Notes under the pieces: generated by a model
The model's input: the letters and a program-made list of their open reading frames with translations, nothing else
Database searches by the model: none
What the model was told of the DNA's origin: nothing
Made by a program: the position numbers and the translations under genes
Shown here: positions 5,205 to 20,292 of the stretch, in pieces
Layout of the letters: every line of letters starts with the position of its first letter
Numbering within the stretch: position 1 is the first letter of the stretch
Source: Megasphaera massiliensis
GTDB taxonomy: Bacteria; Bacillota; Negativicutes; Veillonellales; Megasphaeraceae
Direction of reading: 5' to 3'
Length of the DNA: 45,189 nt
Assembly (NCBI RefSeq): GCF_000455225.1
Contig: NZ_HF954537.1
Location: 165,027-210,215, forward strand

Positions 5205-5806
5205 TTAATGGATCTAAGATAATTGACTTGGACATAATCTGACTACCTGAAAGTGTATAATAATAAATAGCCTGAATGATTGCAAATTAGTAAATTTAAG
5301 TATACAATAAAAGTATTAAAAGACGGTGAATAAAAACAATGCAAAAATATTAGAGATAAATCCCCTTATACCGTTTAAAGTACTTGAAACCATCTAGAAG
5401 CAATTTTTGCGTTCGAATGAGAGTATATATCTTTTACGAATAATGGAATGAAATTACTCTGAGAGATGCAATATGTGGACTGGTGACCTCAAAGGTGAAG
5501 AAATGATGCCAACATTATAAATACTTTTTGGTCGAGAGTTTCTGGTCTTTATGTGTAAATCGATTGGCTTTCCGTTAAATTGGATAAACTAATATTGGCA
5601 CTTAATCGTGATTCATTGGGTGGATTTAATATTTTAGTTTTTATATACTCCCATAATATTGGATTCCAAAAATGGAAACAAGATGGGTTGTCTTGTGAAG
5701 AAAAAGGAAACTGTATTAACAGACTATCCTGATGAATTAGCCCCTGAGAGAAGGGGTATAGCGGTCTTAAGGAGTGAGAATCAATCAATTAAGGGAGGAA
5801 GCTGTT
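5205..5806. other. AT-rich spacer at the left edge of the accessory island
   Basis: About 600 bases with no convincing gene. Base composition shifts abruptly from the GC-rich comF to AT-rich DNA. From about 5573 onward it matches, with indels, the stretch before the second PIN-kinase gene (about 7716-7949), so the right part is the upstream end of a tandem duplication. A possible -10 box TATAAT lies at 5256-5261 without a well-spaced -35. The short minus-strand open frame at 5549-5788 is not supported. Confidence 0.5.
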
Positions 5807-7408
5807 ATGGCATATGATATCAGTCAGGATAGTAAAGAAAATTACGCCCGAAATAAATTGGACAGCTATGCTAAGGATTGGAAGATTTTCATAGATACCT
5901 GCAGTATCCTACATTTTGCAGCGGGAAAATTTTGGGTGAACATCATTCCTCTTCTTCAGAGATATCAAAATAGAGTGATTATCCCACAACGAAGCATCGA
6001 AGAACTGCAAAAAATTGGGAATAACAAAAGCAAGCCTGAACTTGCAAATAAGGCAAAAGACTGTTTAAAAGTATTAACATGGCTAATCGGGAAAAATTTT
6101 GTAGAAAGGCGGGGTGAAAAAAACGATAGTTTTGTAGATAATCTTTTCCAAGTGGTATTTACTAAATTTCGAATGACACATAAATTACTACTTATCACAC
6201 AAGACGGTGATTTAGCTAAAGATATTTTAGCTCTGAATAGTACTCGATCGGTTAACGCGAACTCTGTTGCGGTTAAAAGAATCAATCAGTACGGTTTTTT
6301 AAGTAATTTTAATTTTAATATTGGTAATACTAATAATGATAGAACTAAGCAGCAAGGAAACAACGTGAAGGAAAATGAAGTTTTTAGAATCTGTAAAACT
6401 GTAACGTCATTGACGGATTCACGCCTTAAGGTAACTCATATTCCGACAGAAAATGAAATCGTATATACGGCATTACGAAAGGGCATAAAATTAAAATCCA
6501 AAGTTGCAGCGGGGGGAGAAGGCATTATATATACGACTAATACCCCATATGTTGCCAAAATATATAAAAAGGAAAATAACACTAGAAGAAGATATGAAAA
6601 AATAAAACTTATGCTTAGTAAAAATCTAAAATGCGAAGGCGTGTGTTATCCGGTTTCAGCATTGTATAATTCTCAGCAAGAGTTTGTTGGGTATATGATG
6701 CCCCAAGCGAAAGGGAAGGAACTTCAAAAAAGCATCTTTATTAAGCAATTATTTTTGAAAAATTTTCCACGCTGGAAAAAGCGCGATACTGTAGAATTGT
6801 GCATTACGATCTTGGAAAAAATTAAGTATCTTCATGACCGAAATATCGTGATGGGAGATATAAATCCTGCTAATATTTTAGTCGTGTCTCCTAAGGAAGT
6901 TTATTTTGTTGATACGGATAGCTATCAGGTGGAAGATTTTCCTTGCCCGGTGGGCACAATTAATTATACGGCACCAGAGATTCAAAGACAGCGTTTTTCA
7001 ACTTTTCTACGAACAATGGGCAATGAAAATTTTGCAGTAGCTACACTTCTTTTTATGATTATGCTTCCCGGGAAACCTCCTTATTCACAACAAGGTGGAG
7101 AGGATCCAATCAATAATATTATCAGGATGGATTTTTCTTATCCCCTTGGAGATAGCTCAAACAAAAAAACACCAGATGGGCCGTGGCGATATATCTGGAG
7201 CCATTTGACATATGATTTAAAAAATGCATTTTACAATACGTTCAGACAAGGTGGGGAATATTCGACGGAAAGTAAGCGACTTACAGTTAATGATTGGCTT
7301 TCTCTTTTTTCATACTACCTTGATTTGCTGGATAGTGGAAAATTCGGAGAACAAGATAAAATGTCAGAAGAGTTATTTCCTACTCGCTATAAAAAAATAC
7401 AAAGGTAG
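5807..7408 (+). CDS. PIN domain-protein kinase fusion, copy 1 (TerY-P-like kinase, tail lost)
   Basis: A 533-residue protein with two domains. Residues 25-150 look like a PIN nuclease domain: FIDT (D30), an EEL helix (E65/E66), D107 or D111, and ITQDGDLA (D133) supply the four acidic positions. Residues 230-500 are a Ser/Thr-type protein kinase: glycine loop AAGGEG (234-239), lysine in VAKIYKK (K251), catalytic GDINPAN (D351, N356), DTD in place of DFG (D369) and APE (389-391). The DTD variant and the neighbours match kinases of the TerY-P triad. Start chosen at 5807, 8 bases after GGAGG; the GTG at 5774 lacks such a site. It ends early at TAG 7406 compared with copy 2, after a run of seven A where copy 2 has eight. 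Function is inferred: a phosphorylation-controlled RNase or RNA-sensing kinase is possible. Confidence 0.8.
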   Translation: MAYDISQDSKENYARNKLDSYAKDWKIFIDTCSILHFAAGKFWVNIIPLLQRYQNRVIIPQRSIEELQKIGNNKSKPELANKAKDCLKVLTWLIGKNFVERRGEKNDSFVDNLFQVVFTKFRMTHKLLLITQDGDLAKDILALNSTRSVNANSVAVKRINQYGFLSNFNFNIGNTNNDRTKQQGNNVKENEVFRICKTVTSLTDSRLKVTHIPTENEIVYTALRKGIKLKSKVAAGGEGIIYTTNTPYVAKIYKKENNTRRRYEKIKLMLSKNLKCEGVCYPVSALYNSQQEFVGYMMPQAKGKELQKSIFIKQLFLKNFPRWKKRDTVELCITILEKIKYLHDRNIVMGDINPANILVVSPKEVYFVDTDSYQVEDFPCPVGTINYTAPEIQRQRFSTFLRTMGNENFAVATLLFMIMLPGKPPYSQQGGEDPINNIIRMDFSYPLGDSSNKKTPDGPWRYIWSHLTYDLKNAFYNTFRQGGEYSTESKRLTVNDWLSLFSYYLDLLDSGKFGEQDKMSEELFPTRYKKIQR

Positions 7409-7680
7409 GATATACTGCTGTAAGTTGTGCCATAATGAAGTTCCTAGAAATCAATTGCGATGTCTGTCTTGAGTGTTTTGAACACGGAAATCCGGTATGG
7501 CGTATGCGTACATGAATTGATTGTGGTCGGCAATTTGATATAACAAATTATGAATATGAGTCTTATGAAGAAATGGACTTTGATCTTTCAAAACATTGCA
7601 AATCATGCCGTGAGGCTAAAAAGACTCATTCGTATAGTTCTTCTAGCGGGTATTCATCTCGAATGAGAGATATACTTTAA
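7409..7680 (+). pseudogene. Decayed zinc-knuckle tail of PIN-kinase copy 1
   Basis: This stretch is clearly homologous to the zinc-knuckle region of copy 2 (about 9550-9945) but is broken. The first CxxC pair is in another frame, about 130 bases are missing where copy 2 has its second knuckle, and a TGA stands where copy 2 has a cysteine codon in the third knuckle. Pieces reading CLECFEHG, IDCGR and CKSCREAKKT are still recognisable. The homology stops in the serine-rich linker, so the CFI-box tail is absent altogether. Confidence 0.85.
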
Positions 7681-7715
7681 ATGTGTAAAGAGATTAGCTC
7701 TTATTACATGCGATA

Positions 7716-10301
7716 TTAAATTGGCAAACAAATATGGGCACTTAATAGTGATTCATTGGGTGGATTTAATATTTTGTGTTGAGATACTTTAAAGATAGTG
7801 GATTCCGAAACTGGGAACAAGATATTTTATCTTATGAAGAAATAAGGGAAACTGCATTAACAGACTGTACTGATGAATTAGAAGCTGAGGGTAGGAAGGG
7901 GGCTGGTGCTCTTAAAGGGGGAATCGATCGATTAAGGGAGGAAGCTGTTATGTCCTATGAAAGTAATCAGAATAGTAAAGAAACCTACGCCAAAAACAGA
8001 TTGGACGATTACACTAAGGATTGGAAAATCTTCATAGATACCTACAGTATGTTGCACTTTGCTGCAGATAAATTTTGGATGAATATTATTCCTTTTCTTC
8101 GTAAATATCAAAATAAGGTGATTATTCCACAGCGAAGTGTCGAAGAATTGAAAAAATTGGGGAATAATAAAAGAAATCCTGAACTTGCAGAGAAGGCAAA
8201 GAATTGTTTAAAAGTATTAACGTGGCTAATTGGGGAAAATTTTGTGGAAAGGCGGGGTGAAAAAAACGATAGTTTTGTGGACAATCTTTTCCAAGTAGTA
8301 TTCACTAAATTTCGAATGACACATAAATTACTACTTATTACACAAAACGGTGATTTGGCTAAAGATATTCTAGCTCTGAATAACAATAATTCGGGTAGAG
8401 TGAATTCTGTTCATGTTAAAAGAATTAATCGGTACGGTTTTTTAAGTAATTTTGATTTGGATGTTGGCAATACCAAGTGTGATAGAATTAAGCCGCAGAA
8501 AGAAAATAACGTGGATAAAAATGAAGTTTTTAGAATCTGCAAAACTGTAACGTTACTGACGGATTCACTCCTTAAGGTAACTCATATTCCGACAGAAAAT
8601 GAAATCGTATATACAGCATCACGAGAGACCATAAAATTAAAATCTAAAGTTGCAGCGGGTGGAGAAGGCATTATATATACGACTAATACTCCATATGTTG
8701 CTAAAATATATAAAAAGGAAAATAACACTAAAAGAAGATATGAAAAAATAAAACTTATGCTTAGCAAAAATATAAAATGTGAAGGTATATGTTATCCGGT
8801 CTTCGCATTATATAATTCCCGGCAAGAGTTTGTTGGGTATATGATGCCCCAAGCGAAAGGGAAGGAACTTCAAAAAAGTATCTTTATTAAGCAATTATTT
8901 TTGAAAAATTTTCCACGCTGGAAAAAGCGCGATACTGTAGAATTGTGCATTACGATCTTGGAAAAAATTAAGTATCTTCATGACCGAAATATCGTGATGG
9001 GAGATATAAATCCTGCCAATATTTTAGTGGTATCTCCTAAGGAGGTTTATTTTGTTGATACGGATAGCTACCAGGTGGAAGATTTTCCTTGTCCTGTAGG
9101 AACAAATAATTATACGGCACCAGAGATTCAAAGAAAGCATTTTTCTGATTTTCTACGAACAATGGGCAATGAGAATTTTGCAGTAGCTACACTCCTTTTT
9201 ATGATTATGCTTCCCGGGAAACCACCTTATTCACAACAAGGTGGAGAGGATCCAATCAATAATATTATCAGGATGGATTTTTCTTATCCGTTTGGAGATA
9301 ACTCAAACAAAAAAACTCCAGATGGTCCGTGGCGTTATATTTGGAGCCATTTGACATATGCTTTAAAAGGAGCATTTTACAATACGTTCAGAAAAGGTGG
9401 GAAATATTCAACGGAAAGTAAGCGACTTACAGTTAATGATTGGCTTTCTCTTTTTTTACACTACCTTGATTTACTGGATAGTGGAAAATTCGGAGAACAA
9501 GATAAAATGTCAGAGGAGTTATTCCCTACTCGGCATAAAAAAAATCCGAAGATAGAGTACGTCGTCTGTCGGTTGTGCCATAATGAAGTGCCTAGAAATC
9601 AATGTCAGCAGGGGATGTGTCAAGCTTGTTTGAAGAGAGGTGAAGTATACCGATGTAAAAGATGTAACAAAGAAATGTTATATACGAATTATCAAAAATA
9701 TATCAAAAAGTCTAAACGCTATGATGTTTGTCATGAGTGCTTTGAATACGGGCAGCAGGTATGGCGTAGGTGTGCATGTATTGATTGTGGTCGTCGATTT
9801 AATATAACAAATTATGAATATGAGTATTATGAAGAAATGGGATTTGATCTGCCCAAACGTTGTAAATCATGTCGTGAGGCTAAAAAGACTCGCTCGTATA
9901 GTTCTTCGGGAGGATATTCTTCTCGAACAAGAAGACATACTTCATCTTCTCATAGCAGCAGTTCTTCTGGAAGTAAAGGCTCATCCTGTTTTATTTCAAC
10001 GGTAGTATGTGAGTATTTTGGTAAATCGGATGATTGTATAGAACTTAATATATTACGTGGGTACAGGGATAATTGGTTAAATAATCAGCCGGATGGACCA
10101 AGGTTGATTGCAGAATACTATAATAATGCACCGCTTATTGTAAGCAAATTAAAAGTATCGGCGGACTATGAAGTTTGCTGTAATTATCTTTGGGATTATT
10201 ATCTACATCCCTGTCTTATGCTTATTGAAAACCAACAATATGAGTTATGTAAAAAACTATATATGGAGATGTATCAATATCTAAAAGACAAATTAACTTA
10301 A
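7716..10301 (+). repeat. Tandem duplication unit 2 (PIN-kinase)
   Basis: Second unit of the tandem duplication that begins at about 5573. It holds the full-length version of the gene. Its upstream part (7776-7949) stays open in the frame of the kinase for 58 codons, which the matching part of unit 1 does not, so it may be the remnant of an upstream coding sequence. Confidence 0.82.
7950..10301 (+). CDS. PIN domain-protein kinase-zinc knuckle-CFI-box protein, copy 2
   Basis: A 783-residue multidomain protein. Order: PIN-like domain (about 25-150), protein kinase (about 230-500, with AAGGEG, VAKIYKK, GDINPAN, DTD and APE motifs as in copy 1), three CxxC...CxxC zinc knuckles (about 540-665, first pair C540/C543), a serine-rich linker, and a C-terminal CFI-box domain starting at C680 (CFIST, then a RDNWL helix and an EYYNNAP segment). 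The kinase plus zinc part fits the TerY-P triad kinase, and the VWA and PP2C partners follow directly. One PIN acidic residue is changed: ITQNGDLA has N133 where copy 1 has D133 (codon AAC at 8346-8348). Start chosen at 7950, 8 bases after GGAGG; an upstream TTG at 7776 stays in frame but lacks support. The VWA genes follow after 68 bases. Confidence 0.82.
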   Translation: MSYESNQNSKETYAKNRLDDYTKDWKIFIDTYSMLHFAADKFWMNIIPFLRKYQNKVIIPQRSVEELKKLGNNKRNPELAEKAKNCLKVLTWLIGENFVERRGEKNDSFVDNLFQVVFTKFRMTHKLLLITQNGDLAKDILALNNNNSGRVNSVHVKRINRYGFLSNFDLDVGNTKCDRIKPQKENNVDKNEVFRICKTVTLLTDSLLKVTHIPTENEIVYTASRETIKLKSKVAAGGEGIIYTTNTPYVAKIYKKENNTKRRYEKIKLMLSKNIKCEGICYPVFALYNSRQEFVGYMMPQAKGKELQKSIFIKQLFLKNFPRWKKRDTVELCITILEKIKYLHDRNIVMGDINPANILVVSPKEVYFVDTDSYQVEDFPCPVGTNNYTAPEIQRKHFSDFLRTMGNENFAVATLLFMIMLPGKPPYSQQGGEDPINNIIRMDFSYPFGDNSNKKTPDGPWRYIWSHLTYALKGAFYNTFRKGGKYSTESKRLTVNDWLSLFLHYLDLLDSGKFGEQDKMSEELFPTRHKKNPKIEYVVCRLCHNEVPRNQCQQGMCQACLKRGEVYRCKRCNKEMLYTNYQKYIKKSKRYDVCHECFEYGQQVWRRCACIDCGRRFNITNYEYEYYEEMGFDLPKRCKSCREAKKTRSYSSSGGYSSRTRRHTSSSHSSSSSGSKGSSCFISTVVCEYFGKSDDCIELNILRGYRDNWLNNQPDGPRLIAEYYNNAPLIVSKLKVSADYEVCCNYLWDYYLHPCLMLIENQQYELCKKLYMEMYQYLKDKLT

Positions 10302-10369
10302 AGGTAGTTAAAAAACGATTTATTTTAATTACTATAAATCTAAATAAATAATATAAGGAGGAATCTCAA

Positions 10370-11056
10370 ATGGATGACAATTTATTGGTAAGACTAGAAG
10401 ACTTAGTAAACAATCCTACGGCAAGAGTACCGGTGTGCCTTTGTCTGGATACAAGTGGTTCAATGGATGGAGATCCTATTGATGAATTAAATGGGGGCGT
10501 ACGTTTGTTTTATGAAGCTATTCGTGAGGATGAGACTGCAATGTATTCTGCTGAAATCAGTATTGTTACTTTTGGCGGAGATGCACAATGTATTGCCGAT
10601 TTTGCAAGTCTGGAAATTCAGCCGGATGCACCACTTTTGACTGCTAATGGAATGACCCCTATGGGAGAAGCTGTAAATATAGGGTTGGATTTACTTGAAC
10701 GGCGTAAGAATGAGTATAAAGAGCGAGGTGTTGATTATTATCAACCTTGGCTAGTCCTTATGACTGATGGTGCTCCCAATGGAGATTCCGCAGAACTATC
10801 TCGTGCAATAGACCGAACTGTGGATTTGATTAATCAGAAAAAACTCCATATATTTCCTATTGGTATAGGATCGGAAGCTGATATGAAGGTTCTTGCTCGA
10901 TTCTCGCCTAAAAAGCATCCATTGAAACTACAAGGATTGAAATTCCGTGAGTTCTTTTCTTGGCTTAGTAAGAGTGTATCGAAAACGTCTCAATCGAGCC
11001 CGGGGGAAAGTGTAAAACTTGATCTAGAAGGAATCCAAGACTGGGGCGAATTATAA
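10370..11056 (+). CDS. TerY-like VWA domain protein, copy 1
   Basis: A 228-residue von Willebrand factor A domain protein of the TerY type. The metal-ion-dependent adhesion site is intact: DTSGS (D27, S29, S31), the threonine in GMTPMG and the aspartate in LMTDG. TerY-like proteins bind metal and are thought to act as scaffolds in a phosphorylation module with a PP2C phosphatase and a kinase, all of which are here. There is no signal peptide or membrane segment, so it is cytoplasmic. A perfect ribosome site AAGGAGG lies 9 bases before the ATG. It is followed after 13 bases by a paralogue with nearly identical N- and C-terminal ends, so this is a tandem duplication. Confidence 0.88.
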   Translation: MDDNLLVRLEDLVNNPTARVPVCLCLDTSGSMDGDPIDELNGGVRLFYEAIREDETAMYSAEISIVTFGGDAQCIADFASLEIQPDAPLLTANGMTPMGEAVNIGLDLLERRKNEYKERGVDYYQPWLVLMTDGAPNGDSAELSRAIDRTVDLINQKKLHIFPIGIGSEADMKVLARFSPKKHPLKLQGLKFREFFSWLSKSVSKTSQSSPGESVKLDLEGIQDWGEL

Positions 11057-11069
11057 GGAGGAGAATAAT

Positions 11070-11834
11070 ATGGAGAGTAATATGCTAGTAAGAATTGAAG
11101 ACTTAGTAAACAATCCAACACCGAGAGTGCCGATATGTTTATGTTTAGATACCAGTGGTTCGATGGGGGCTGTAGAGGGTGAATGCGAAGCAACCGGAGA
11201 GACGGTTTATGAGGACGGCCGTACTTGGAATATCGTAACGGGTGGAACGAGCAGAATTGATGAACTTCAAAAGGGCGTTGAACAGTTCTATGAAGCGATT
11301 CGTGAAGATGAAATCGCCGTATATTCCGCTGAAATATGTATCGTTACTTTTGATAGTAAAGCTACGTGCGTATTGGATTTTGCAAATATCGAAAGACAAG
11401 AAACAATTCCTGAATTGCAGCCAGTAGGAGATACTTCAATGGGAGAAGGCGTTAATCTTGCCCTTGATTTATTAGATAGAAGAAAGCAGGAATATAAGGA
11501 TAAAGGGGTTGATTATTATCAGCCGTGGCTTGTCTTAATGACAGATGGGGTGCCTAATGGAGATGAAGGTGAATTGAATCGAGCCATGCGCCGTACTACA
11601 GAAATGGTTAATCAGAAAAAGCTAACCGTATTTCCTATTGGCATAGGTAATGAAAGTGATATGTCGACACTTAATCGTTTTTCACCGAAGCGTCCGGCTT
11701 TAAAATTACAGGGACTGAAATTCCGTGAGTTCTTCGCTTGGCTTAGCAAGAGTGTATCGAAAACATCTCAATCGATCCCCGGTGAAAGTGTACCGCTTGA
11801 TGTGGATGGAATTAAAGGGTGGGCAGAATTATAA
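11070..11834 (+). CDS. TerY-like VWA domain protein, copy 2
   Basis: A 254-residue paralogue of the preceding VWA protein. It has the same N-terminal block (LVRIEDLVNNPT), the same metal site (D27, S29, S31; TSMGEG; LMTDG) and the same C-terminal block (LKLQGLKFREFF). Right after DTSGSM it carries an insertion of about 25 residues rich in acidic residues and glycine, at the edge of the metal site, where a partner or ligand would bind. The two VWA proteins may therefore recognise different partners, perhaps the two different kinases. Ribosome site AAGGAGG lies 8 bases before the ATG. Confidence 0.88.
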   Translation: MESNMLVRIEDLVNNPTPRVPICLCLDTSGSMGAVEGECEATGETVYEDGRTWNIVTGGTSRIDELQKGVEQFYEAIREDEIAVYSAEICIVTFDSKATCVLDFANIERQETIPELQPVGDTSMGEGVNLALDLLDRRKQEYKDKGVDYYQPWLVLMTDGVPNGDEGELNRAMRRTTEMVNQKKLTVFPIGIGNESDMSTLNRFSPKRPALKLQGLKFREFFAWLSKSVSKTSQSIPGESVPLDVDGIKGWAEL

Positions 11835-11841
11835 ACTAGAG

Positions 11842-11872
11842 ATGTCTGACAAACTTTATGTTTGTCAGACAT
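11842..11872 (+). promoter_or_regulatory. Perfect 13-bp hairpin between VWA2 and PP2C genes
   Basis: ATGTCTGACAAAC (11842-11854) and its exact complement (11860-11872) flank a 5-base loop. No T run follows, so it is not an ordinary terminator. It lies 8 bases after the VWA2 stop and about 10 bases before the PP2C ribosome site, where it could stabilise the upstream mRNA end, attenuate PP2C expression, or bind a protein. Confidence 0.6.
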
Positions 11873-11892
11873 TGCTATATGGAGGTGCTTTT

Positions 11893-12909
11893 ATGTGGAA
11901 TGCAATTCAATGTGCGGTTCAAGGTCGAAGTCATATAAAGTCAGGCATACCTTGCCAAGATAAAACCTATTCAGTTGTTGATGATAACATACAGGTAATT
12001 GCTCTAGCTGATGGAGCAGGGTCAGCCAAATTCTCCCATTACGGAGCGGAGGCTGTTACAAAGTTCATATGCTTGGAATTGGTCGAGAAATTTGATACTT
12101 ACTTTGCTACTGAGAATGGTGTTGCTGTAAAACAAGAAATTTTGGAGCGTGTGCTAAAAAATCTCAGTACAACAGCAAAAAAATTAGAGTGTGAAATAAA
12201 AGAATTGGCTTCTACTCTCTTGTTAGTAGCAATTAAGGACGATAAATTTATAATTGCACATATCGGAGATGGTGTAATTGGGTATCTTAAAAATAATGAG
12301 ATGAAAATAGCTTCTCAACCAGAAAATGGTGAGTTTGTAAATACAACCGTATTCACGACGTCAAAGGATGCTATTATGACCATGAAGTTAATCAAAGGCT
12401 TTTTAGGGACAATTCAAGGTTTTGTTTTAATGTCCGATGGACCTGAAGCACGTTTATATAGTAAGCAAGAGAATAAATTAGCGGATGTTTTAAAAAAAAT
12501 AATGCATATGTCTACGATCATCTCTATTGATAAAATACAGGAACAAGTTAGGCAGAGTTTTGAAAGTACCATCATTAAAGAGACAACGGATGATTGTAGC
12601 ATGGCTATGTTGGTAAAGACAAATGATAGCTTTAAAGGTTATTTGAAATTATCTAATAAAGGTAAACGTGAATTATTGAAAATTAAATTCGCTTCACCGA
12701 AAAAGATAATAAGGAGATATGATGATCTTTTGGTATATTTACAGAATAAACGATCTATCCATCAAATTGCACGGAAAATTCATCTGAAACCGAAATATGC
12801 ACAAAGATATATTGATAAATTACGTATGCTCAATTTTATTGAGAAAAATAGTGGCTATTATCACACAATATTAATTATGGACATAGAGAACGGAATGACT
12901 GATGAATAA
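11893..12909 (+). CDS. PP2C-type protein phosphatase with C-terminal winged helix
   Basis: A 338-residue protein. Residues 1-255 form a PP2C (PPM) phosphatase related to those of TerY-P triads. The metal-binding aspartates are in ALADGAGSA (D40, G41), HIGDG and the late DDCSMA motif. It should reverse phosphorylation made by the neighbouring kinases. Residues about 270-330 look like a winged helix-turn-helix (RSIHQIARKIHLKPKYAQRY then a basic helix), suggesting DNA or RNA binding or a role as the output. Start chosen at ATG 11893 behind GGAGG; the frame stays open further upstream but would overlap the VWA gene. The next gene begins 35 bases later. Confidence 0.83.
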   Translation: MWNAIQCAVQGRSHIKSGIPCQDKTYSVVDDNIQVIALADGAGSAKFSHYGAEAVTKFICLELVEKFDTYFATENGVAVKQEILERVLKNLSTTAKKLECEIKELASTLLLVAIKDDKFIIAHIGDGVIGYLKNNEMKIASQPENGEFVNTTVFTTSKDAIMTMKLIKGFLGTIQGFVLMSDGPEARLYSKQENKLADVLKKIMHMSTIISIDKIQEQVRQSFESTIIKETTDDCSMAMLVKTNDSFKGYLKLSNKGKRELLKIKFASPKKIIRRYDDLLVYLQNKRSIHQIARKIHLKPKYAQRYIDKLRMLNFIEKNSGYYHTILIMDIENGMTDE

Positions 12910-12943
12910 ATATATTCTTTTAGAAAAGGAGCGGAACTTTACT

Positions 12944-13306
12944 ATGAGAAGAAAATTATCATTGTCTGCTAAATCTATGGCTGTAAGCCTATTGCTTGCC
13001 GGTGGAATTGCCATTGGTGGTGTCTCGACATCGGAAGCTGCAACTTTTTATGGAGGGTACAATAATAGTACGGTAGTGGTTACTGATGACAGTAGTGTTG
13101 TTTATCCAGGTGATGGTACTGCACGGATGTATCTTACTCAAAGTTATGGCGGAAATTCATTCTATTATCTGGTTGAAGTAAATCCCAATGATAAGCGAGT
13201 ATATATTCTTGATAATAATGGGCATAAGAAACTGGATGGACATGGACGGTATATTATGATCGGTGATTACGATATTGTTAAACAGATGATGAACTATTAT
13301 TTTTAA
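12944..13306 (+). CDS. Small exported protein of unknown function
   Basis: A 120-residue protein with a clear signal peptide (basic MRRKLSLSAK, hydrophobic core, cleavage probably after SEA at residue 32). The mature part of about 88 residues is rich in Tyr, Asn, Gly and Asp, has no cysteine, and looks like a small beta-rich domain. I recognise no family. The start at 12944 gives the signal peptide and has AAAGGAG about 12 bases upstream; an ATG at 12902 overlapping the PP2C gene would bury the signal sequence. It is probably cotranscribed with the VWA/PP2C genes, so it could be an exported partner of the module, or a passenger at the island edge. Confidence 0.6.
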   Translation: MRRKLSLSAKSMAVSLLLAGGIAIGGVSTSEAATFYGGYNNSTVVVTDDSSVVYPGDGTARMYLTQSYGGNSFYYLVEVNPNDKRVYILDNNGHKKLDGHGRYIMIGDYDIVKQMMNYYF

Positions 13307-13312
13307 GGTGAG

Positions 13313-13609
13313 ATGATGAAGTTGAACAAGGCTGCTGATAGGCTTCTGGACGCTACTACTGAGACACTGACCTACATGAATTTCCCGGAAGAACACTGGA
13401 AGAAAATCCGTACGAACAACATGATTGAGCGACTCAATCGAGAGATTCGTCGTCGTACTCGTGTCGTTGGCACATTCCCTGACGGCGAGAGTGCCTTGAT
13501 GATGGTATGCGCCCAGCTCCGCCATGGCGTCAGCACTAAGTGGGGCCCGAAGAAGTACATGGATATGAAACAACTCTACGGATTTGATATGGATAATCTT
13601 CTTGACTGA
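13313..13609 (+). pseudogene. IS256-family (mutator) transposase, C-terminal fragment
   Basis: About 98 codons equal to the C-terminal quarter of an IS256/mutator-type transposase, with the typical EEHWKKIRT, ERLNREIRRRTRVVG and ALMMVCA signatures. A full transposase is about 400 residues, so the N-terminal three quarters, including most of the catalytic core, are missing. The fragment starts 7 bases after the stop codon of the exported protein, so the deletion or insertion junction lies there. Confidence 0.88.
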
Positions 13610-17652: not shown

Positions 17653-18522
17653 ATGCCTACGAATGAAACGATTACCGCGGCGCAAAACGCCAAACGCCAT
17701 CAGCGGGCATTGAACATTATCAAGCGATGGCGGCTTATGGATGACGATTTCATGAAGCGCTGCTTCAAGGATAATATTCCGGCTGTCGAATGTATTTTGC
17801 GTATCATCATGGAAAAGCCGGATTTACAGGTACAAACGGTGCAGATTGAGGATACGATCCCCAACCTTTCCGGCCATGGGATACGGATGGATGTGCATGC
17901 CACCGATTCGACGGGAACGGAATACGATATCGAAGTGCAGCGTGCCGACAAAGGCGCGGGAACGAAGCGGGCCCGTTTCAACAGCAGCCTGCTCGATCTC
18001 AACAGCTTGAGAAAAGGCAGCGATTATGAAAAACTGCCGGAAAGCTACGTCATCTTTATTACCGAAAACGATGTTTGGCAGTATGGCTTGGCCCGCTACC
18101 ATGTCAACCGGATCATCGAAGAATTGAACCGTCCCTTTGAAGACGGCAGTCACATCATCTACGTCAATGGCAATTATAAGGGAAATGATGACATGGGCAA
18201 ACTGATGAATGATTTTCGCAGTGAAAACGTAGAAGATATGCTGTTAGATCCCTTGAAAGAAACGGTACATCGTTACAAAAATAACCCAGAGGAGGTGGCT
18301 GTTATGTGCGCAGAACTTGAAAAATGGAGCCTTGAAGAACGTCAGGAAGGGCGCCTGGAAGGTCGCCAGGAGGGACTACAGGCAGGACGCCAAGAAGGCG
18401 AAAGCCGGCTGACGACGTTGTTAAGACTGCTGAAAGCCGATGGCCGTCTGCAGGATCTGGAATTGGCCATCGACGATGAAAAGGCCAGAGAAAAACTGTA
18501 TCGGGAATATCACATTAACTGA
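17653..18522 (+). CDS. Rpn-type PD-(D/E)XK nuclease (transposase-like)
   Basis: A 289-residue protein of the Rpn / PD-(D/E)XK 'transposase' family. The nuclease core is at about residues 45-150: an aspartate in GIRMDVHA, then YDIEVQ, the E-x-Q variant of the E-x-K motif. The C-terminal part holds a charged helix with 4-residue repeats (RQEG, RLEG, LQAG) and a final helical domain. Rpn proteins cut DNA and have been linked to recombination and phage defence. A Shine-Dalgarno site (AGAGGAGG, 18288-18295) and ATG (18304) inside the gene could start a C-terminal product. The gene has its own promoter. Incomplete copies of it fill the next 1.8 kb. Confidence 0.85.
   Translation: MPTNETITAAQNAKRHQRALNIIKRWRLMDDDFMKRCFKDNIPAVECILRIIMEKPDLQVQTVQIEDTIPNLSGHGIRMDVHATDSTGTEYDIEVQRADKGAGTKRARFNSSLLDLNSLRKGSDYEKLPESYVIFITENDVWQYGLARYHVNRIIEELNRPFEDGSHIIYVNGNYKGNDDMGKLMNDFRSENVEDMLLDPLKETVHRYKNNPEEVAVMCAELEKWSLEERQEGRLEGRQEGLQAGRQEGESRLTTLLRLLKADGRLQDLELAIDDEKAREKLYREYHIN
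18304..18522 (+). CDS. Possible nested C-terminal product of the Rpn nuclease (72 aa)
   Basis: In frame within the nuclease gene, ATG 18304 (Met218) is preceded by AGAGGAGG with an 8-base gap, one of the best ribosome sites in the window. Its product would be the RQEG-repeat helix plus the final domain, without the nuclease core. In E. coli, C-terminal products made from internal starts of Rpn genes are reported to block the full-length nuclease. The same SD-ATG arrangement recurs in the two partial copies at 18599 and 20098. Whether it is used is not shown by sequence alone. Confidence 0.5.
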   Translation: MCAELEKWSLEERQEGRLEGRQEGLQAGRQEGESRLTTLLRLLKADGRLQDLELAIDDEKAREKLYREYHIN

Positions 18523-19367: not shown

Positions 19368-19931
19368 ATGAAAAAGTCGTGTTTTTTAATGATGACCGCG
19401 ATGATTATCGCCAGTGGTATGGGGATTCAGCCAGCAATTGGAGCAACCGTGGAGGCTGTAAAGCCGGCTATTGCTGTGCCAGATACCGATCGGAAGAGCA
19501 TTGCGGATAAAATAGCTATCCGTGAACTTATAGATACGTTTTCAATTGAGGCGGATAATAAAGATGGCATATCGCAGATTGACCTTTTTACGAAAGATGC
19601 TGTTGTGGAGAATTACAACAATGGCAAGCTGACGCAAACTTTAAAAGGCAATGAAAATATTGGCAAGGCCTTTGACGACTTTTTAAAGACACAGGATGTT
19701 GTTTATCATATAAATGGACAGCAGGTCATACATCTAAATGGGAATAAAGCAGACGGTATCAGTTATTGCTTTGTTACTCTTATTTATACGGATAAAGAGG
19801 GCAAAACTATGAAACGTCAGACAGGCGTCCGCTATGTAGATGATTATGTATTCCAAAATGGTCGTTGGCTGATTGCGCATCGAAAAGCCTATTTTAATTG
19901 GAGTGAACAGGTCCCGTATCAAGGCGGCTGA
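19368..19931 (+). CDS. Exported SnoaL/NTF2-like protein
   Basis: A 187-residue protein with a signal peptide (MKKSCFLMM..., cleavage probably after AIGA near residue 26). The mature part has the NTF2/SnoaL cone fold signature: a helical start with IADKIAIRELIDTFSIEADN, then DLFTKDAVVE, and a final strand WLIAHRKAYFNW. Members of this group bind or transform small hydrophobic molecules; no catalytic pair can be assigned safely here. A strong ribosome site AAAAGGAGG lies 8 bases before the ATG. The gene lies between two fragments of an Rpn nuclease copy, so it arrived by insertion or rearrangement. Confidence 0.75.
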   Translation: MKKSCFLMMTAMIIASGMGIQPAIGATVEAVKPAIAVPDTDRKSIADKIAIRELIDTFSIEADNKDGISQIDLFTKDAVVENYNNGKLTQTLKGNENIGKAFDDFLKTQDVVYHINGQQVIHLNGNKADGISYCFVTLIYTDKEGKTMKRQTGVRYVDDYVFQNGRWLIAHRKAYFNWSEQVPYQGG

Positions 19932-19941
19932 AAAAGCCAAT

Positions 19942-19983
19942 AGTCACATCATCTACGTCAATGGCAATTATAAGGGAAATGAT
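19942..19983 (+). repeat. 42-bp direct repeat, right copy
   Basis: Partner of 19050-19091, with 4 mismatches. The differences mean it is not a fresh target-site duplication. Confidence 0.75.
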
Positions 19984-20292
19984 GACATGGGCAAGCTGAT
20001 GAATGATTTTCGCAGTGAGAACGTAGAAGACATGGTGTTGGAACCCTTGAAAGAAACGGTCCATCGTTACAAAAACAACCCGGAGGAGGTGGCGGTTATG
20101 TGCGCAGAACTTGAAAAATGGAGCCTTGAAGAACGTCAGGAAGGACGTCAGGAAGGACGTCAAGAAGGCGAAAGCCGGTTGACGACATTGTTAAGACTGC
20201 TGAAAGCCGATGACCGTCTGCAGGATCTGGAATTGGCTATCGACGATGAAAAGGCCAGAGAAAAGCTGTATCAGGAATATCATTTTAATTGA
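19942..20292 (+). pseudogene. Rpn nuclease fragment (C-terminal part)
   Basis: This matches the parent nuclease from SHIIYVNGNYKG to its stop codon. The nuclease core is absent. The internal start is kept: GGAGGAGG about 8 bases before ATG 20098 would give a 64-residue product with three RQEG repeats and the final domain. Together with 18894-19095 it makes up the middle and end of one disrupted copy. It may still express the C-terminal product. Confidence 0.75.

Follow-up and report, generated by a model that had tools for sequence, protein, structure and literature searches.

A PIN-kinase variant of the TerY-P operon in Megasphaera massiliensis and distant bacteria

This report concerns an operon of Megasphaera massiliensis in which Ser/Thr kinases with an N-terminal PIN domain are followed by two von Willebrand factor A (VWA) proteins and a PP2C phosphatase. 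It lies in a stretch of 45,189 nucleotides (nt; hereafter the window) of contig NZ_HF954537.1, from an assembly of 2.74 Mb in 28 contigs. The PIN-kinase operon is a real and widespread variant of TerY-P, new in carrying a candidate PIN effector. Our preferred reading, to which we give a probability of about 0.6, is a mobile TerY-P-type phosphorylation module with an endoribonuclease as its output. Behind this reading stands a predicted architecture in which a YegI-like Ser/Thr kinase with intact catalytic motifs carries a PIN domain at its N-terminus, and almost every homologue has the complete acidic PIN site.

The operon lies in an AT-rich islet between comF and a LysR gene. GC content is 34-41% in the islet, 51-55% to its left and about 48% to its right. 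The genes of the islet, all on the plus strand, encode a pair of long kinases, a pair of VWA proteins, one PP2C and one small exported protein. The original prediction, made from the sequence alone, had these genes on one strand in AT-rich DNA, and their positions were confirmed. It had accepted upstream GTG starts for three open reading frames (ORFs), for which homologues support ATG 5807 (kinase 1), ATG 7950 (kinase 2) and ATG 11893 (PP2C). It had also missed a decayed duplication, the relics of a helix-turn-helix (HTH) regulator with a pseudo-PIN domain, and the treble clef and CFI-box of kinase 2. The core genes and domains are these:

5807..7408, plus strand: PIN-kinase 1, 533 amino acids (aa), ATG start, TAG stop at 7406-7408, without the zinc/CFI tail
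5879..6310, plus strand: PIN domain of PIN-kinase 1, about residues 25-168, as aligned to PIN structures
6494..7387 (approximate), plus strand: Ser/Thr kinase domain of PIN-kinase 1, with GGEG loop, AKIY lysine, GDIN Asp351, Asn and VDTDS
7950..10301, plus strand: PIN-kinase 2, 783 aa, with PIN, kinase, treble clef and CFI-box C-terminal domain
9543..10298, plus strand: tail of PIN-kinase 2, a Cys-rich treble-clef segment and a helical CFI-box domain
10370..11056, plus strand: VWA protein 1, TerY-like, 228 aa, with the metal ion-dependent adhesion site (MIDAS) motifs DTSGS / MTPMG / LMTDG
11070..11834, plus strand: VWA protein 2, 254 aa, MIDAS motifs DTSGS / DTSMG / LMTDG
11893..12909, plus strand: PP2C phosphatase, 338 aa, metal-site motifs DGAGS, GDG, SDG and DDCS

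Recurrence of the operon

When 84,980 species genomes were scanned with a seven-sequence alignment that included the PIN domain, there were 203 pattern matches. The scan counted 92 relatives, and the 80 best of these gave 79 loci, cited here by L numbers. By profile, the PIN domain is fused to the kinase in 57 of them, encoded by a separate ORF before the kinase in 8, and not recognised in 14. A locus was called fused if the PIN profile matched any of its kinase ORFs at E <1e-4, and ORFs that are partial or frame-broken were counted too (L086, L106, L108, L130, L131 and L135). The N-termini of L129 and L136 looked PIN-like by eye; sequence searches of the PDB gave no PIN for them, and both are counted among the 14. 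Near-copies were kept in the 79 (L092, L093 and L131 from one genome, L078 and L085 from one genome, L102 and L128 from close species, and the near-identical L124 and L125), and L067, L069, L086 and L101 lie on the same contigs as L047, L048, L050 and L049, three being profile seeds. In L106, L116, L130, L131 and L135 the kinase reading frame is broken, by decay or by sequencing error.

A VWA gene is found in 76 of the 79 loci and a PP2C gene in 73. Both are present in 72, and in 53 of the 57 fused loci, so the predicted link of the kinase to VWA and PP2C genes held in the neighbourhood search. Gaps of at most 200 nt separate 73 of 79 kinase-VWA pairs, 70 of 72 VWA-PP2C pairs and all eight pairs of kinase and separate PIN ORF, seven of which overlap as called; two of these eight loci come from one genome, and L116 is probably a broken fusion. 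The spacing of the kinase, VWA and PP2C genes is operon-like, and chance association is excluded because the gene order recurs in dozens of distant genomes. The kinase catalytic residues are invariant in a seven-row alignment. In a quick kinase tree, which left out 6 of 88 rows (L067, L069, L085, L086, L093 and L101) and has very long branches for YegI, L046 and L058, the labels fused, separate and none are clustered, with 12 changes against a shuffled mean of 23.2.

The PIN domain, fused or separate, accompanies the kinase in Bacillota, Spirochaetota, Campylobacterota, Pseudomonadota, Actinomycetota, Planctomycetota and Fibrobacterota. It is also present in Candidatus Zymogenaceae and in a Saccharimonadota bin (L080), which the tree places with Selenomonadales; this contig may have been mis-binned. 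Fusobacterium vincentii has it too, on a record described as a plasmid of 2.1 Mb. The same gene order occurs on plasmids of Lysinibacillus capsici and Paenarthrobacter, and the Paenarthrobacter kinase is annotated as a 'PIN domain-containing protein'.

Nearer to the window, presence is patchy. The operon was found in 0 of 14 other genomes of the genus, and strong-similarity matches occur in 5 of 398 genomes of the phylum, the window's own genome counted. The operon of Peptostreptococcus russellii shares about 77-82% DNA identity with that of the window across the main blocks; together with the GC contrast, this identity points to acquisition by horizontal transfer. At the same comF-LysR site the closest relative (L150) has repeated 3' fragments of comF and unrelated genes (by eye, an aminotransferase, a PhzF-like protein, LysR, a MerR-like protein and a transporter), so that the site is variable.

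The PIN domain of the kinases

The original prediction of an N-terminal PIN domain in both kinases agrees with structure prediction and with the homologues. Pfam PIN_4 is matched at E <=0.01 by 46 of 49 aligned homologous N-termini, and stays below its cut-off in the two window kinases (E 0.0034 and 0.015). An AlphaFold2 model of residues 1-190 of kinase 1, built on the homologue alignment, has a predicted local distance difference test score (pLDDT) of 89.3, and Foldseek found seven structures matching it at E <=0.001. Of the top 15 Foldseek rows, nine have PIN domain in their title (EST1A/SMG6, Utp24, Utp23 and AF0591); the other six, from processome, snoRNP and uncharacterised chains, we take to be PIN as well. 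A second structural comparison put a 90S pre-ribosome chain on top (Z 10.9) and gave Z 10.3 both for Utp24 (5yz4, 126 residues) and for SMG6 (2hww_A, 127 residues). Since 46 of 49 homologues match PIN_4 and the model best matches PIN structures, the N-terminal domain of both window kinases is, on modelling, a PIN fold. SMG6/EST1A and Utp24 presumably share the acidic site as well. They differ in being eukaryotic RNA-decay or ribosome-processing proteins, and we know of no kinase fusion among them.

The acidic site is well kept in the family. In the 49-sequence alignment D30 and T131 are invariant, and E66, D111 and D133 are among the 11 positions conserved at 90% or more. In 58 fused homologues (56 from the genome scan plus L042 and L043; L044, both window copies and L149 left out), D30 is kept in 58, E66 in 55, D111 in 54 and D133 in 57. 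The corresponding counts for nine separate PIN proteins are 7, 8, 8 and 8, the protein of L115 being degenerate. The domain very probably is, or once was, a metal-dependent nuclease. In the window all four acids (D30, E66, D111 and D133, the last encoded by GAC) stand in kinase 1; kinase 2 keeps the first three and has Asn133 (AAC, 8346-8348) as its fourth motif. The claim of two PIN-kinases therefore stands for the fold in both copies, and for the full acidic site in copy 1. The residues that the original prediction had singled out for mutation are confirmed: two PIN acids (D30 and D133), the GDIN aspartate of the kinase in copy 1 (D351) and, with numbering from ATG 11893, the aspartate of DGAGS in the PP2C (D40), presumably a metal ligand. 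Neither window kinase is a small stand-alone PIN toxin of the VapBC kind, the PIN domain lying within proteins of 533 and 783 aa.

A protein with PIN and treble clef and without a kinase is seen in L052 (8055-9005) and L053 (7199-8014). In L052 its gene adjoins those of a histidine kinase, a response regulator and a RelA/SpoT-domain protein, and the neighbours in L053 are similar in size.

A decayed tandem duplication

Kinases 1 and 2 are sister copies in the quick tree, and both kinase domains are above the Pfam cut-off (PF00069, E 8.5e-11 and 3.1e-10). Kinase 2 has a tail with matches to zf_Tbcl (E 4.4e-07) and CFI_box_CTERM (E 6.8e-14). The tail model has a pLDDT of 86 and a predicted TM-score of 0.43, with a top PDB structural match at E 0.072, and its sequence profile gave weak rows in the PDB, mostly zinc fingers. 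The CFI-box is not named in the open-licence literature searched. Kinase 1 has no such tail, and behind its stop codon lies the remnant of one:

7418..7668 (approximate), plus strand: remains of the treble-clef zinc segment that PIN-kinase 1 has lost, in direct repeats with copy 2 at 84-92%

At 7459-7623 this relic retains 58-60% aa identity to L060 and L062. As judged from the sequence, a tandem duplication covered the regulator relic described below, the kinase and the zinc segment. The duplicated module has partly decayed: the PIN site survives in copy 1 and the tail in copy 2.

Pairwise ratios of non-synonymous to synonymous substitution (dN/dS) between the copies are 0.21 in the PIN domain, 0.13 in the kinase and 0.83 in the linker. 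The low values in PIN and kinase indicate selection after duplication on at least one copy and probably on both. In the kinase part dS is lower than in PIN (0.22 and 0.56, respectively), which suggests that gene conversion took place there. Both copies may still be working, at odds that we put a little below even.

An HTH regulator with a pseudo-PIN domain

In 17 of the 57 fused loci, and in 0 of 22 other loci, an upstream gene of 267-477 codons matches an HTH-PIN profile, and in 16 of these 17 it directly adjoins the fused kinase, within 28 nt. HTH_3 is above the Pfam cut-off in two of the three HTH-PIN proteins scanned. The PIN site of 19 such proteins is degenerate: E66 is kept in 5, D133 in 7 and D111 in at most 1. 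From its sequence, the regulator looks like a repressor that arose from a degenerated copy of the effector domain; it was not found in the open-licence literature searched. Remnants of it lie before both kinases of the window:

5343..5789 (approximate), plus strand: HTH-pseudo-PIN relic, copy 1, with stops and frameshifts
7676..7919 (approximate), plus strand: HTH-pseudo-PIN C-terminal relic, copy 2, spread over three frames

Copy 1 aligns by tblastn with the intact L060 protein at 42% identity over 128 aa (5427-5789, E 1.9e-16), and DNA similarity to L060 begins at 5343. The in-frame part of copy 2 is the false 5' extension of an 841-aa ORF. By these alignments, the regulator is intact in relatives and a relic before each kinase of the window.

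VWA proteins, phosphatase and surrounding features

Both VWA proteins are above the PF00092 cut-off. They look like older paralogues, because the short and the long type occur together in L060, L062, L068 and L071. The phosphatase had been described as a PP2C with a winged helix. The PP2C assignment is clear (PP2C_2, E 1.8e-46), and a winged helix in the tail is plausible from sub-threshold matches (DUF3791 E 0.0005, HTH_45 0.039, MarR 0.041). One further element lies between the VWA and PP2C genes:

11842..11872, no strand: hairpin between VWA2 and PP2C, with 13-bp arms

The coding strand of this hairpin has no T run. Similar hairpins occupy the same VWA-PP2C position in L060 and L062; in L067 and L071 a hairpin with different arm sequences can form at that place, by eye.

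The small exported protein (12902-13306), which the original prediction had counted in, was rejected as a module member: it had a single match at E 0.84 in the loci fetched by then, and 0 of 14 same-genus genomes have it. In the window no RNA family reached its gathering score, and 31 promoter-like matches stand against 34.1 in shuffles, i.e. no excess. At the right edge of the islet, 13313-13609 resembles by eye the C-terminal end of an IS256-type transposase. Further right lie an Rpn/PD-(D/E)XK-transposase-like ORF (17653-18522) and its shortened second copy (19873-20292), also by eye.

Beside the core genes, no accessory family is found in more than 9 of the 79 loci. In L102, L103, L109 and L128 the first operon has behind it a second, divergent PIN-kinase and VWA, after which comes a gene from a DnaJ/TPR-type cluster. 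A large ATPase with a small partner gene adjoins the operon in L068, L072 and L075, and is HerA/mad8-like by PADLOC in L068 and L072. An AIPR nuclease before the kinase in Treponema L124-L126, suspected by eye, was rejected: PF10592 was found in 0 of 3 genomes, and a PDB search with the L124 protein was empty.

Defence neighbourhood

The original prediction had proposed a phage-responsive switch, and this idea finds its support in context. Four closely inspected loci have defence neighbours. In L065 (263-16379) the PIN-kinase operon lies between two CARF-HEPN (Csm6/Csx1) genes of a type III-D locus of clustered regularly interspaced short palindromic repeats (CRISPR), flanked on one side by genes for Cas6 and Csm3/Cas7; downstream, on the other side, is a CRISPR array with 12 copies of a 37-nt repeat. 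In L117 (1171-8389), also a type III CRISPR locus, a CARF gene (Cas_APE2256 E 4.2e-34, with PDB matches) directly precedes a kinase without a recognised PIN, and RAMP genes are on the same contig; a VapC-like small ORF is seen by eye near the CARF gene. L060 has type III restriction genes on one side and, by eye, HsdM/HsdS-like genes on the other. L149 (5467-11738), from a virus-collection contig, encodes a kinase with PIN_4 above the cut-off (E 8.8e-07), a VWA and a PP2C. This cassette stands between tail and endolysin genes of phage or gene-transfer-agent type and a type VI retron-like reverse transcriptase (E 2.1e-76). A search of the L149 record for the terminase family PF03354 was negative, so the contig may be a gene-transfer-agent cluster or a fragment.

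Relation to known systems

The cited papers were compared by passages, and what is said of each refers to those passages. TerY-P consists of a VWA protein, a PP2C and a kinase with a zinc ribbon or OB fold (PMC11090510). It is anti-phage in Pseudomonas aeruginosa, with no PIN described in the text compared (PMC10889362), its phage protection is attributed to Gao 2020 (PMC11090510; comment PMC7699616), and it occurs as an island in Helicobacter pylori (PMC4978471). The window has the same three protein classes in one operon, namely a TerY-like VWA with MIDAS, a PP2C with metal-site motifs and a Ser/Thr kinase. The zinc segment of TerY-P kinases is present at the C-terminus of copy 2 and lost from copy 1, and both TerY-P and the PIN-kinase operon are patchy, with restriction or CRISPR genes nearby in some loci. 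The differences are the PIN domain on the kinase or in a gene before it, the CFI-box tail (20 of 57 fused loci) and the HTH-pseudo-PIN gene (17 loci). The original prediction knew of no described PIN-kinase version, and we found none in the open-licence literature searched, a scope outside which the founding TerY-P paper falls.

An actinobacterial kinase with a zinc ribbon adjoins PP2C and vWA, and separately PIN and a zinc domain occur in vWA-MoxR systems (PMC7159879). CARF-nuclease proteins are mentioned in a TerY-dependent system (PMC3710099). Genes for vWA, kinase and phosphatase also lie near CRISPR loci as UAS-7 and others; no PIN-kinase is mentioned in the text compared, and an overlap with loci such as L065 is possible (PMC10910872). 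In CoCoNuT types II and III-A the TerY-P triad is likewise coupled to predicted RNA-targeting effectors, but it accompanies McrB-like GTPases and HEPN proteins, whereas here the nuclease is in the kinase chain (PMC11090510).

The YegL-PphC-YegI genes of Escherichia coli are also adjacent and encode a VWA, a PP2C and a homologous kinase (26% identity over the kinase). They differ in the order VWA-PP2C-kinase, and YegI has no recognised PIN and no treble-clef or CFI match. YegI is also reported to be membrane-bound (PMC13232886).

The PIN-kinase module would work like IRE1 and RNase L, in which kinase and RNase share one chain, with the RNase expected to follow the state of the kinase. It is not a member of their family. 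In IRE1 and RNase L a KEN/HEPN RNase lies C-terminal to the kinase (PMC3710099), whereas here a PIN domain lies N-terminal to it and VWA and PP2C are operon partners.

Proposed function and alternatives

We propose that the kinase, through its zinc/CFI tail or a partner, would sense infection or stress and autophosphorylate. Phosphorylation on assemblies organised by the VWA proteins would free the PIN domain from restraint, and the activated domain would cut RNA and halt phage production at some cost to the cell. PP2C would then reset the switch. In some relatives the HTH-pseudo-PIN protein encoded upstream is probably a repressor of the operon, and it may also form a pair with the PIN domain. 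Control of PIN by the kinase/PP2C state is probable, and defence against phages is rather likely to be the ordinary job of the module.

Several observations weigh against this proposal. In the first 15 rows the PIN matches have moderate TM-scores, 0.40-0.50 when scaled by query length. Searching the PDB with a sequence profile of the PIN region gave nothing below E 0.001, the best rows being designed proteins, then MJ1533 (E 0.064) and EST1A (E 0.25). The query of the genome scan included PIN, so that 57 of 79 overstates the PIN share among TerY-P kinases. Defence neighbours were shown in four loci only, and the window itself is flanked by housekeeping genes and a transposase-like fragment. 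The viral collection gave one relative only (L149), and the phage collection one record, which matches the kinase only. The PADLOC matches of the window kinases (PD-T4-6, mad6 and MkoA) are to kinase-bearing models, which alone are no proof of defence. The flank scan is suggestive of enrichment in defence families, with 99 PADLOC families among 122 flank proteins and 43 among 121 controls, a crude comparison that used 122 of 224 selected flank proteins and redundant families; PD-T4-6 kinase models make up most control rows among the first 25 families listed. A limited literature search gave no report of a phage role for E. coli YegI, PphC or YegL. Finally, kinase 1 without its tail, kinase 2 with N133 and the lost regulator mean that the window copy may be failing.

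This last observation leads to the reading in which the module of the window is dying, both PIN-kinases being non-functional remnants of a horizontally acquired island. The truncation of kinase 1 with its tail relic, N133 in kinase 2, the breakage of both HTH-PIN copies and the transposase-like fragment seen by eye at the right edge all fit it. We still hold it unlikely: dN/dS between the copies is well below 1 in PIN and kinase, though 0.83 in the linker, both VWA proteins and the PP2C are intact with full motifs, and short forms without the zinc tail exist in L088, L095 and L101. The asymmetry of the copies also bears on whether the PIN domain is an RNA-binding nucleic-acid sensor that activates the kinase, in which case the effector would be the kinase, phosphorylating host or phage proteins. 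Copy 2 lacks one PIN acid, yet the pairwise dN/dS is low, and nucleic-acid binding has been suggested for the OB-fold or zinc-ribbon C-terminus of other TerY-P kinases (PMC11090510). However, binding alone would not require all four acids, and these are near-invariant in the 58 fused proteins, which makes the sensor improbable.

It is similarly improbable that the operon is a general stress or metabolic regulator like YegI-PphC, with PIN processing selected transcripts and with no specific role against phages. The record of the E. coli triad carries no defence label, and in K strains the locus of this triad also encodes YegJ, a protein that binds RNase E (PMC13232886). A DnaJ/TPR-type family is near five loci, with Pfam DnaJ in L076, the one member scanned, and a sub-threshold DnaJ match lies in the Lysinibacillus operon. 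A general regulator sits poorly, though, with the patchy presence (0 of 14 same-genus genomes), the AT-rich DNA, the plasmid copies and the CRISPR, restriction and retron-like neighbours of some relatives. The switch might also have the opposite sign, the kinase holding the PIN RNase off by phosphorylation and PP2C freeing it when infection disturbs kinase or VWA. The anatomy of the module fits either direction, and nothing computed sets the sign. But among the five loci with a broken kinase frame, L106, L130 and L131 have a whole or near-whole PIN frame open before the break, and a freed PIN should be toxic if the kinase were its sole restraint; the argument is weak, sequencing errors being possible, and we consider the opposite sign quite improbable.

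Under our preferred reading of a phosphorylation module with an endoribonuclease output, the PIN-kinase puts a candidate effector into the TerY-P kinase chain and so opens the output of the triad to point mutants. TerY-P triads are anti-phage, but in the passages of the literature compared the target of their phosphorylation is not stated. More tentatively, and at slightly less than an even chance, the module might be a convergent bacterial counterpart of IRE1 and RNase L. It would then be an anti-phage module of eight or more phyla, with a kinase-state-switched endoribonuclease chain, PP2C reset, VWA scaffolds and a pseudo-PIN HTH repressor, in which CARF signalling or another PIN subtype can replace the input or the output. 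The variant also supplies a candidate bacterial kinase-RNase switch for comparison with IRE1 and RNase L, and with it a regulator that seems to derive from a degenerate version of the domain it targets.

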